Origin: Acidimicrobiales bacterium
GTDB lineage: Bacteria; Actinomycetota; Acidimicrobiia; Acidimicrobiales; JAHEJN01
Direction of reading: 5' to 3'
Length of the DNA: 56,247 bases
Assembly: GCA_024638845.1 (NCBI GenBank)
Contig: JAHEJN010000003.1
Location: forward strand, 39,988-96,234
In this document: piece after piece, positions 4,654-14,083 of the stretch
Numbering within the stretch: position 1 is the stretch's first letter
Layout: each line of letters begins with the position of its first letter
The notes under the pieces: model-generated
What the model was told of the DNA's origin: nothing
Databases searched by the model: none
The model's input: the letters and a program-made list of their open reading frames with translations, nothing else
Program-made: the position numbers and the translations under genes

Positions 4654-5301
4654 GTGGCCGATCTCACCCTGCGACACCGTATCTACTCGACGCTGGCCGG
4701 AACCGGTCGGGCCCCCTCCCTGCCCACGGTCGCCGGGTGGCTGCACGACACCACACCGGATCACCGCGTGGCCCGGCAGGCGCTCCGCGAGCTGCACGAT
4801 GCCCATCAGATCGTGCTCGAAGACAACGGTCGGTCCGAGTCGATCCGCATGGCGCTGCCGTTCTCGGCCATCCCCACCGATCATCGCGTCGAGGCGGCTG
4901 ACCGGTCGTGGTGGGCCAACTGTGCGTGGGACGCGCTGGCGATTCCGGCGGCGCTGGACATCGATGCTCGTATCGACGCCTGCTGGCTCGACGTCGATGC
5001 ACCGGTCGAGCTGGCGGTGGTCGACGGTCGCCTCACCGGTGGCGACGGCTTCCTGCATTTCACCGTGCCTGCTCGGCGTTGGTGGGACGACATCGTGGAA
5101 ACGTGAAGGACCATCCGGTTCCTCCGGTCGGAGGACGCAGCGCCTGCTGGTGGCGTCATCCCCTTGTCGTCGGCCTGGCCGCTCACCGTCGCCTGGTACG
5201 GCGATCGTCTCTCGCGCACCTGGGAACCTCGGTCGCGCGACCACCACCAGCAGCTCCTGGTGCAGGCCGACCTGACCGACGGGTTCTGGCGGCTCGGCTG
5301 A
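4654..5301 (+). CDS. merB: Probable selenocysteine-containing organomercurial lyase-like protein (MerB family)
   Basis: The frame opens at GTG 4654 and runs to TGA 5299-5301, broken only by TGA at 5104-5106 (codon 151), giving 215 residues. Residues 1-80 form the winged-helix-like N-terminal region. WWANCAWDAL supplies C90 and D93, equivalent to catalytic Cys96/Asp99 of MerB. After WWDDIVET comes the TGA, then RTIRFLRSED, and later AWYGDRLSRTWEPRSRD and LTDGFWRLG, the normal C-terminus of this actinobacterial family. In relatives the TGA site is Cys, aligning with MerB Cys159, the third catalytic residue. MerB cleaves carbon-mercury bonds; substrate is unproven for these distant homologs. A SECIS-like hairpin follows 19 nt after the TGA. 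An MFS transporter starts 6 nt downstream. Conventional annotation would truncate the protein at residue 150. Alternative: nonsense pseudogene, judged unlikely given the intact tail. Confidence 0.86.
5120..5135 (+). promoter_or_regulatory. Candidate bacterial SECIS hairpin in merB-like gene
   Basis: Arms TCCTCC (5120-5125) and GGAGGA (5130-5135) pair perfectly around the tetraloop GGTC (5126-5129). The loop begins after 19 nt from the in-frame TGA (5104-5106). A GGUC loop on a C-G closing pair is, from memory, the same apical sequence recognised by SelB in the E. coli fdhF and Moorella fdhA elements. The stem may extend by U-G and G-C below one bulged C (5136). Confidence 0.8.
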
Positions 5302-5307
5302 GCGCCC

Positions 5308-6570
5308 ATGCTCCTCGGTCGCCGTGGCGAACCCGGGGATCCGGTTAGCGTCGACTCCACGGACACCTCGTCAGACTGGCGTTTGCCGGTCACTCTGCTC
5401 GGCGTCATGACCATCGGGGCCTACGGGCTCGTGCTCTACGCGTTCGGGGCCTTCGTCGGACCGATCCGTGACGACACCGGCTGGTCGAGCACCACCGTGT
5501 CGTCAGCGTTCTCGGTCAGCGCCCTGCTGGGAGGACTGGGAGCCATCGCCACCGGACGGTTGCTCGACCGCATCGGCATCCGACCCGTGGCGGTCGGCTC
5601 TCTGATCGCCGGTGCGAGCCTCCTGTGGGTCGCGGCCTCGGCCACCGATCCGGTGTGGTTCGTGCTCGCATGGGGCGTCGGCGGGGGCGTCGTGAGCGCC
5701 GGGCTCTTCTACAACACCACGATGGCGGCGACCACCCGCCTCACGCCTCCCGCCGAGCGGCCGCAGGCCTTCAGCTGGCTCACCGTGTTGGGAGGCCTCG
5801 CCGCGCCGGCCACGTTTCCTCTCGCCGGTTGGATGGTCGAGGCCTGGGGTTGGCGCGACGCCGTTCGGGGCATGGTGGGTTTCCTCGTGGTGTGCTCGCT
5901 GCCGGCGATCGTGTTCGTGCGAGGCGGCTCGGCCCGCGACGCGCCGACCCATCCGACACGCGCCGACGAGCACCACGGGTTCGCTGATGTCGCCGCCGCA
6001 CTGCGCTCGCCGACAGTACGCCGATGGCTGGTCGCAGTGGCCGCCGCGATGATGTCGCTGGTGGCCATCCAGGTTCACCACGTTCCGGCCCTCGAGGCAT
6101 CGGGGCTCACGCTCGGTGCTGCGACCACCCTCGCCGGCATCCGCGGCCTGCTCTCGCTGCCCGGTCGAGCGGCCGGAGCGCCGCTCGTCTCCTACTGGGG
6201 CACGGTTCCCGCGCTGCGCCTCACGTACGTGATGATGGGCATCGGGACCGCCGCCCTCATCCCCGGCGGGTCCTTCGTCTGGGCCTTCGTCATCGTCACC
6301 GGCCTCGCCTTCGGCACGGTCGCGCCGCTCCAGGGCCTGTACGCAGCCGAGCTCTACGGCCCTCGCCGCATCGGCACCCTCATGGGCATGCAGCAGGTGG
6401 TGATGAGCCTGGCCACCGCCGCCGGGCCGTTCCTGCTCGGTATCACCGTCGACCTCACCGACGGCTACACGACGCTGCTGGTTCTCGCGATTGCGTTGAA
6501 CGTCGTGGCGCTCGCCGTGTTCCGCTCGCCGGCCTCAGCCCGGACGTCGGGTGTACCGTCGACGCCGTGA
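5308..6570 (+). CDS. Major facilitator superfamily transporter
   Basis: A 420-residue polytopic membrane protein with about 12 hydrophobic segments and the MFS loop-2/3 signature GRLLDRIGIRPV. The second half repeats the pattern with RGLLSLPGRAAGAPL. MFS carriers move small molecules by proton exchange; the substrate cannot be assigned. ATG 5308 lies 6 nt after the merB-like stop, so the pair is almost certainly one transcript and the carrier may export a product linked to that enzyme (inference). It ends in a GTGA overlap with the PIG-L gene, extending the likely operon to three genes. Confidence 0.9.
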   Translation: MLLGRRGEPGDPVSVDSTDTSSDWRLPVTLLGVMTIGAYGLVLYAFGAFVGPIRDDTGWSSTTVSSAFSVSALLGGLGAIATGRLLDRIGIRPVAVGSLIAGASLLWVAASATDPVWFVLAWGVGGGVVSAGLFYNTTMAATTRLTPPAERPQAFSWLTVLGGLAAPATFPLAGWMVEAWGWRDAVRGMVGFLVVCSLPAIVFVRGGSARDAPTHPTRADEHHGFADVAAALRSPTVRRWLVAVAAAMMSLVAIQVHHVPALEASGLTLGAATTLAGIRGLLSLPGRAAGAPLVSYWGTVPALRLTYVMMGIGTAALIPGGSFVWAFVIVTGLAFGTVAPLQGLYAAELYGPRRIGTLMGMQQVVMSLATAAGPFLLGITVDLTDGYTTLLVLAIALNVVALAVFRSPASARTSGVPSTP

Positions 6571-13169: not shown

Positions 13170-14083
13170 TCGACCGGAACCCCACGCAGAGCCCCGACGA
13201 TGTCGGCGAAGAAGTCGACGATCCGCGGCCCCCAACGCGACGCCGTGTCGGAGTCGAGCGCCACGACGTTGCCGTTCTGCACCGCTGTGAGCTGGTCCCA
13301 ACCCGGACGGGCCGCGACCGTGTCGACGCTCTCCCCGTAGGCCGTGTCGGCCAGGAAGATGAAATCGGGATCGGCCTCGAGCACGAACTCCTCCGAGAGC
13401 TGGGGATACCCGAAGCCGTCGCGATCGGCGGGGTCGGCGATGCTCTGCATTCCGGCCAGGCCGTAGATCTCACCGATGAACGACGTGGAGGTGGCCGTGT
13501 AGAAGGTGTTGTCGATCTCGTGGAAGTAGGTGGGCGCGACGACCGGATCGGGAAGATCGGCCGCCAACGCCGCCAGGTCGGACCGCATGCCGGCCACCAA
13601 CGCCGCCGCTTCTCCCCCGTGCCCGGTGGCCACGCCGACCTGCTCGATCTGGCGGTAGGCCTCATCGAGGTTCGCGGCGCCGGCGTGCAGGATGGTCGGG
13701 ATACCCAGAGTGTCGAGGCCGGCGACCAGGTCACCCGGATCGAAGCTGGTGAAGACCAGATCGGGCTCGAACGCAACGATGGCCTCGACGTTGGGCTCGA
13801 AGCTGCTGAGGTCGGTCACGGGAGCCTCGGGGGGATACGTGCTCTGCGAATCGACGGCGATCACCTGCTCGCCGGCGCCCAGGGCGAACAGCACCTCGGT
13901 GCTCACCGTCGACAACGACACGATGCGGACAGGCTGGGCCTCGATGCGCGCTCCGGCCACCTCGACGGGGAAGGTCGCGTCGTCGACCGGCGCGACGGGA
14001 GCCGACTCGGGGAACGGGCTGTCGCTGCCACAGGCTGCGACGACGATGGTCACGGCGACGACGACCGAGAGCGTTCTGATCAC
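13166..14083 (-). CDS. btuF: Cobalamin-binding lipoprotein of ABC transporter
   Basis: A 305-residue substrate-binding protein with a lipoprotein signal ending VVAAC (Cys18). The periplasmic-binding-protein type III fold is shown by RIVSLSTVSTEVLFALGAGEQVIAVD and VEAIVAFEPDLVF, and ends with WGPRIVDFFADI. It captures corrinoid outside the membrane for BtuCD. GTG 14083 is fixed by AGGAGG located 6 nt upstream. It is the first gene of the operon and lies directly behind the cobalamin riboswitch. Confidence 0.92.
   Translation of the reverse strand: MIRTLSVVVAVTIVVAACGSDSPFPESAPVAPVDDATFPVEVAGARIEAQPVRIVSLSTVSTEVLFALGAGEQVIAVDSQSTYPPEAPVTDLSSFEPNVEAIVAFEPDLVFTSFDPGDLVAGLDTLGIPTILHAGAANLDEAYRQIEQVGVATGHGGEAAALVAGMRSDLAALAADLPDPVVAPTYFHEIDNTFYTATSTSFIGEIYGLAGMQSIADPADRDGFGYPQLSEEFVLEADPDFIFLADTAYGESVDTVAARPGWDQLTAVQNGNVVALDSDTASRWGPRIVDFFADIVGALRGVPVE

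Follow-up and report, generated by a model that had tools for sequence, protein, structure and literature searches.

A MerB-superfamily selenoprotein with selenocysteine inferred at the Cys159 position of the organomercurial lyase

The selenoprotein locus

The window, by which we mean the whole stretch of DNA that was analyzed, comprises 56,247 nucleotides from an Acidimicrobiales bacterium. Positions 4654..5301 of its + strand are assigned to a gene for a 215-residue MerB-superfamily selenoprotein, on the basis of the reading frame, a PF03243 match above cut-off, an AlphaFold2 model and fold matches in the PDB. The frame opens with a GTG start, and 150 codons precede an in-frame TGA at 5104..5106 (+ strand); a further 64 codons lead to the terminal TGA at 5299-5301. 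The internal TGA corresponds to residue 151, the equivalent of MerB Cys159, an assignment that rests on alignment to MerB structures and on the same column in relatives, which holds Sec-UGA, Sec-UAG or Cys. The codons of two other active-site residues lie upstream on the same strand. Cys90 (4921..4923), equivalent to MerB Cys96, is invariant in family alignment A4, and Asp93 (4930..4932), equivalent to MerB Asp99, is conserved at 90% or more in this alignment; both equivalences are also given by the structure alignment. Past the TGA, a bacterial SECIS hairpin is located at 5120..5135 (+ strand), with a 6-bp stem and a GGUC loop at 5126-5129, as supported by covariation, codon freezing, the predicted fold and the bSECIS criteria.

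Six bases past the stop of the selenoprotein gene, a major-facilitator-type transporter starts (5308..6570, + strand; identified by reading its translation). The two genes may be co-transcribed. That the transporter belongs to the system of the selenoprotein is no more than possible, and we give it little weight because transporter-like neighbors recur in only a few relatives. A response-regulator-like frame at L002 (approximately 13884-13986), a short distance upstream of the window, is broken by a run of N.

Protein fold and active site

The protein matches the MerB family PF03243 with an E-value of 9.9e-21 and 74.5 bits, against a cut-off of 27. An AlphaFold2 model computed from 58 homologs has a pLDDT of 96.6 and a pTM of 0.92, and a Foldseek search of the PDB with this model returned only MerB structures at E <= 0.001, the best being 5c17 (E 1.4e-8, TM 0.61). 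Alignment of the family profile to solved MerB, in the numbering of 3f2g, places C90 at Cys96, D93 at Asp99 and residue 151 at Cys159. The structural Cys117 of MerB corresponds to W111, so this cysteine is not kept here, and many other members of the family retain a Cys within a CPDC motif. Variants at position 117 are common among MerB homologs (PMC8261052).

The protein thus shares with the organomercurial lyase MerB (PF03243; R831b MerB 3f0o and MerB2 5c17) a common fold, a similar length, the equivalents of Cys96 and Asp99, and the Cys159 column. It differs from MerB in that Sec replaces Cys159, Cys117 is absent from this copy, identity to solved MerB is only about 20%, and the MerB equivalog models are not satisfied (31.3 of 193 bits and 27.9 of 200 bits). 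In addition, the gene is found here without a mer operon, and the hosts of the family usually lack MerA.

The SECIS hairpin

The stem of the hairpin is perfectly paired (5120-5125 with 5130-5135); it begins 13 nt past the TGA, and its loop lies 19 nt past it. These features fulfil the bSECIS criteria, which specify a loop of 3–9 nt, a stem of 4–16 bp, a G in the first two loop positions, a distance of 16–37 nt from the UGA and a minimum free energy of -7.5 kcal/mol or lower (PMC13188914), with 6 bp, GGUC, 19 nt and -9.6 kcal/mol, respectively. The energy alone is unremarkable when compared with shuffled sequences (z of -1.58, and of -0.15 for a longer stretch), and minimum free energy was therefore set aside as evidence for a SECIS.

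For this reason, the significance of the hairpin rests on its uniqueness in the window, its conservation and its covariation. The window contains 1,197 TGA triplets, counting both strands, and a GGTC-loop hairpin of at least 6 bp at a distance of 14–29 nt follows only that at 5104-5106. Among 27 sequences from the class of the host, both partners vary in five of the seven SECIS pairs, and the covariation score is 0.434, as compared with 0.172 after shuffling and at most 0.185 after sliding. Furthermore, the codons that encode the stem-loop are frozen. In a set of 107 genes, a few of which were reached twice, the Arg codon is CGG in 106 of 107 (30% elsewhere in the same genes), the Ser codon is TCG in all 107 (35% elsewhere) and the Glu codon is GAA in 69 of 104 (27% elsewhere).

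Selenocysteine machinery in the host genome

The genome to which the window belongs carries selA, with selB directly after it, and a tRNA-Sec gene (selC; 66.1 bits) with a TCA anticodon; all three share a contig with the window. Elsewhere in this genome, outside the window, we observe selD with an in-frame UGA of its own (G000:C80:18460-19404) and fdhA, encoding a formate dehydrogenase with UGA in its U-H-x-P motif, here U-H-A-P (G000:C211:8501-10369).

Within the class, selA is present in 26 of the 27 genomes with the Sec form of the MerB-like gene and in 186 of the 267 genomes that lack this gene (Fisher p 0.0025, with no correction for relatedness). The sole Sec-form genome without selA, G196, has a tRNA-Sec at 67.6 bits. 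Genome G184 encodes a Cys form; it lacks selA, and the strongest tRNA-Sec match in it is marginal (71 bases, 47.5 bits).

Conservation of the selenocysteine column

A MerB-like relative was found in 29 of the 296 genomes of the class, and in 27 of these 29 the gene contains exactly one in-frame TGA, located at the Cys159 column; the remaining two encode Cys there. In 84,980 species genomes that were scanned, we found 229 loci encoding relatives. The search pattern covers the Cys96 region and not the Sec column, and the loci were hence collected without selection for a stop codon. Among the 80 relatives in named genomes closest to the query, a choice that favors this clade, the column holds TGA in 75 and TAG in 5. 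The residue preceding U is T in this protein and T, N or A in relatives, TU being the most frequent and NU and AU also occurring. Three relatives with a sense codon, L042, L046 and L102, have Cys in the column.

The hosts belong, among others, to Actinomycetota, Chloroflexota, Thermomicrobiota, Acidobacteriota, Gemmatimonadota, Calditrichota, Myxococcota, Fidelibacterota and KSB1. Many of them are metagenome bins, and single phylum assignments may be in error; the substitution of Sec for Cys159 is seen across no fewer than eight phyla of bacteria, and some of these have members that can be cultured. In a tree of 127 MerB domains built by maximum likelihood, the Sec forms fall into one group (111 sequences, 99/94 support) and 16 canonical Cys forms stand apart from them, while the Cys forms L042, L046 and L102 sit on long branches inside or at the base of the Sec group. 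The Sec state is old and broadly retained, with a history of Cys and Sec that is incompletely resolved.

No viral copies of the main family were found. Our search of plasmids returned only distant MerB forms with less than 60% identity, the best of which comes from Paraburkholderia sp. PGU19 and encodes Cys at the Sec column. This plasmid copy (L227, 3001-3648) and L042 (genome G241), both of the Cys159 type, show a further active-site variant with Cys at the Asp99 position (TCAWC in one and PCMWC in the other). Separately, the Sec-MerB relative L114, at a contig edge in genome G626, has a few residues inserted after the TGA and a different hairpin (GCAGAAGA...UCUUCUGC), which may represent a SECIS of another kind or an error of assembly.

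Exchange of UGA for UAG in Geodermatophilaceae

The five genes with TAG in the Sec column (L126, L134, L139, L140 and L145) belong to Geodermatophilus saharensis, G. pulveris, Blastococcus saxobsidens, B. capsensis and Modestobacter excelsi, all members of the Geodermatophilaceae, and share the same hairpin with the TGA genes. The anticodon of tRNA-Sec is CUA in each of these five genomes and UCA in the genome of the window and in Nocardioides sp. zg-1230. The Sec codon of the MerB-like gene therefore changes together with the tRNA-Sec anticodon. Neither an ordinary stop nor an error of sequencing would account for this, and the switch from UGA to UAG in this family of bacteria constitutes a natural control.

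Decoding of UAG as Sec in Geodermatophilaceae has been reported for FDH, a UGSC-motif protein and AhpC (PMC5330540). The five MerB-like genes with TAG follow the same logic of a tRNA-Sec with a CUA anticodon. No MerB-like protein is named in the relevant passage of that work, and these genes are an addition to it.

Assignment of selenocysteine at residue 151

The reading frame, the identity of the column, the SECIS and the presence of the machinery are shown by sequence comparison. Insertion of Sec in the living cell is very strongly inferred from these data, and we consider Sec at the MerB Cys159 position to be close to certain, with the reservation that the inference is drawn from sequence alone and that there is no evidence at the protein level.

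A sequence-only reading of the locus had already proposed Sec at the third catalytic position, and this proposal is supported. Re-reading of the frame confirmed the in-frame TGA with 64 further codons, the structure alignment confirmed that the TGA falls on Cys159 and that C90 and D93 fall on Cys96 and Asp99, and the GGUC-loop hairpin held exactly as described, in its perfect pairing and in its distances from the TGA. Cys in this column of homologs, which that reading had suggested verifying, is borne out by L042, L046 and L102 and by the alignment to MerB. The results that it had named as refuting did not appear: selA, selB, selC and selD were all found, instead of a random stop or a frameshift, close relatives keep an in-frame stop at exactly this codon, and an error of sequencing could not recur in more than 100 genes.

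Relation to SaoL

Among the 119 families and subfamilies of prokaryotic selenoproteins listed in a 2026 inventory, one is of MerB type, SaoL (NF040728; motif CU, SAO system). Like the present protein, SaoL is a MerB-superfamily selenoprotein. Of all NCBIfam models, that of SaoL matches this protein best, with a score of 32.2 bits that lies below the cut-off of 140. The scores of ten further members of the family on this model (12.8–63.7 bits) lie below it as well. The family further differs from SaoL in its TU motif, as opposed to CU, and in the lack of recurrent neighbors; the Sec column of SaoL was not compared.

The earlier remark, made without a search, that no described Sec-MerB was known has to be qualified, since SaoL is already catalogued as a MerB-like selenoprotein. 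When we looked for literature connecting alkylmercury lyase with selenocysteine, in a collection that lacks most subscription papers, only two reviews and one genome paper on an unrelated subject came up. A selenoprotein resembling MerB is not in itself a novelty, and the present family appears to be uncatalogued, which we regard as likely without excluding a description elsewhere.

Proposed function

We propose that the protein is a MerB-superfamily selenoprotein with Sec in place of Cys159, which most likely breaks a carbon–metal bond of a soft organometal by protonolysis, organomercury being the first candidate. The reading as a whole is likely, and its parts are not equally supported. Lyase activity is inferred with moderate strength from the fold and the active site and is untested, while which substrate is used and how the product is released are only weakly inferred.

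In the mechanism that we envisage, SelB, tRNA-Sec and the GGUC-loop SECIS (5120-5135) would insert Sec at the UGA at 5104-5106. The Cys90 thiolate and the Sec151 selenolate would capture R-Hg(+), Asp93 would pass a proton to the carbon so that R-H leaves, and Hg(II) would stay on Cys90/Sec151 until removed by small thiols. The roles of Cys96, Asp99 and Cys159 in MerB have been described (PMC4525700). Part of what the scheme assumes for these three residues is general background on the enzyme. A selenolate holds Hg(II) more tightly than a thiolate does, and this could hinder turnover.

The genomic context does not define the function. Clustering of the open reading frames around 29 and then 80 homologs revealed no recurrent neighbor genes, of mer type or other, and a function based on an operon was consequently dropped. 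Of 35 host genomes, only 5 have a MerA above the family cut-off, and that of the window is not among them (best match 327 of 454 bits); a partnership with MerA was dropped for this reason. MerB without MerA is known in many genomes (PMC8261052).

Alternative explanations

The internal UGA could in principle be an ordinary stop, or result from a frameshift, a sequencing error or decay into a pseudogene, or it could encode another amino acid. In favor of an ordinary stop there is only the default meaning of UGA, together with the unexceptional energy of the hairpin. Against it, the stop is conserved in more than 100 genes, the few relatives of the clade with a sense codon have Cys, UAG occurs only where tRNA-Sec reads UAG, the downstream codons are frozen and the hairpin covaries. 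A sequencing error is excluded because the stop recurs in this number of genes and takes the form of TAG only with the matching tRNA-Sec. Since UGA also ends this gene, at 5299, it is not reassigned genome-wide; its use as an ordinary sense codon is ruled out by this termination and by the replacement of UGA with UAG in Geodermatophilaceae. All these explanations are therefore all but excluded. It could also be argued that the family is simply the catalogued SaoL, given that SaoL is a MerB-like selenoprotein and the best NCBIfam match. We find this very unlikely, in view of scores far from the cut-off of 140 in this protein and in the ten other members, a motif of TU (or NU or AU) where SaoL has CU, and the absence, as far as the clustering of neighbors shows, of a SAO-like neighborhood around the gene.

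The remaining alternatives accept Sec and concern its role. The protein might not be a lyase and might instead use a Cys90/Sec151 clamp as a binder, carrier or sensor of soft metals, such as Hg(II), Cu or methylmercury. The lack of a MerA partner in most hosts and of an operon is compatible with this view, as are the very tight grip on Hg expected of a selenolate and the binding of Cu(II) by 99Ser variants of MerB, whose physiological role is unclear (PMC8261052). However, the proton-transfer residue Asp93 is conserved at 90% or more, although a pure binder would not need it, and the entire MerB fold is kept, which makes this role unlikely. Alternatively, the protein might be a lyase with Sec whose substrate is a different organometal or an organometalloid (organotin, organolead or organoarsenic), along the lines proposed for SaoL and the SAO system. 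SaoL has been named a MerB-like organometallic lyase of a Sec-assisted organometallic system, and members of the family obtain scores of 12.8–63.7 bits on its model. Against this, the Cys96 and Asp99 equivalents are those of mercury MerB, and no SAO-like cluster recurs around the gene, as judged from the clustering of neighbors and not from a gene-by-gene sao search; we consider this alternative unlikely as well. The original suggestion of a selenoenzyme acting on organomercury or another carbon–metal substrate thus remains an inference as far as activity is concerned, and other substrates or metal binding are still possible.

Implications of a possible organomercury-cleaving selenoprotein

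Most catalogued selenoproteins are thought to have redox functions (PMC13188914). Here, Sec occupies a position known for the binding of mercury during bond cleavage. If the preferred reading as an organometal lyase is true with respect to activity, part of the environmental breakdown of methylmercury has been overlooked. A MerB-like selenoprotein is easily missed, because gene callers end the protein before the third active-site residue, and a survey requiring Cys159 (PMC8261052) would not count the Sec form as MerB. The family can be tested in culturable hosts, which include Geodermatophilus saharensis DSM 45423, Blastococcus saxobsidens DSM 44509 and Nocardioides sp. zg-1230.

A bolder reading would see in these proteins a widespread and uncatalogued group of MerA-independent selenoenzymes of soil and aquatic bacteria that cleave carbon–mercury bonds or bonds of a similar kind and in which selenium binds the metal directly. 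Sec would hence have a non-redox role, and an AAA ATPase fusion having Sec for both metal-binding cysteines would be the extreme form. On present data, we lean slightly against this reading.

MerB domains with two in-frame TGAs

Three loci, L105, L106 and L107 (genomes G498, G489 and G022, respectively), have two in-frame TGAs in their MerB domain, one at the Cys96 column and the other at the Cys159 column. The three members are about 70% identical, have Glu at the Asp99 position and are fused to a C-terminal AAA ATPase. A viral search with the double-Sec query gave one weak match, restricted to the ATPase part. From these three sequences we infer, as a possibility only, an apparent di-selenocysteine organometal enzyme with an ATPase, rarer than the main family. 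Downstream of the first TGA lies a hairpin of about -16 kcal/mol, which is unexceptional when compared with shuffled sequences, and the second TGA has the same SECIS core as the main family. A tRNA-Sec above the cut-off is present in all three genomes.
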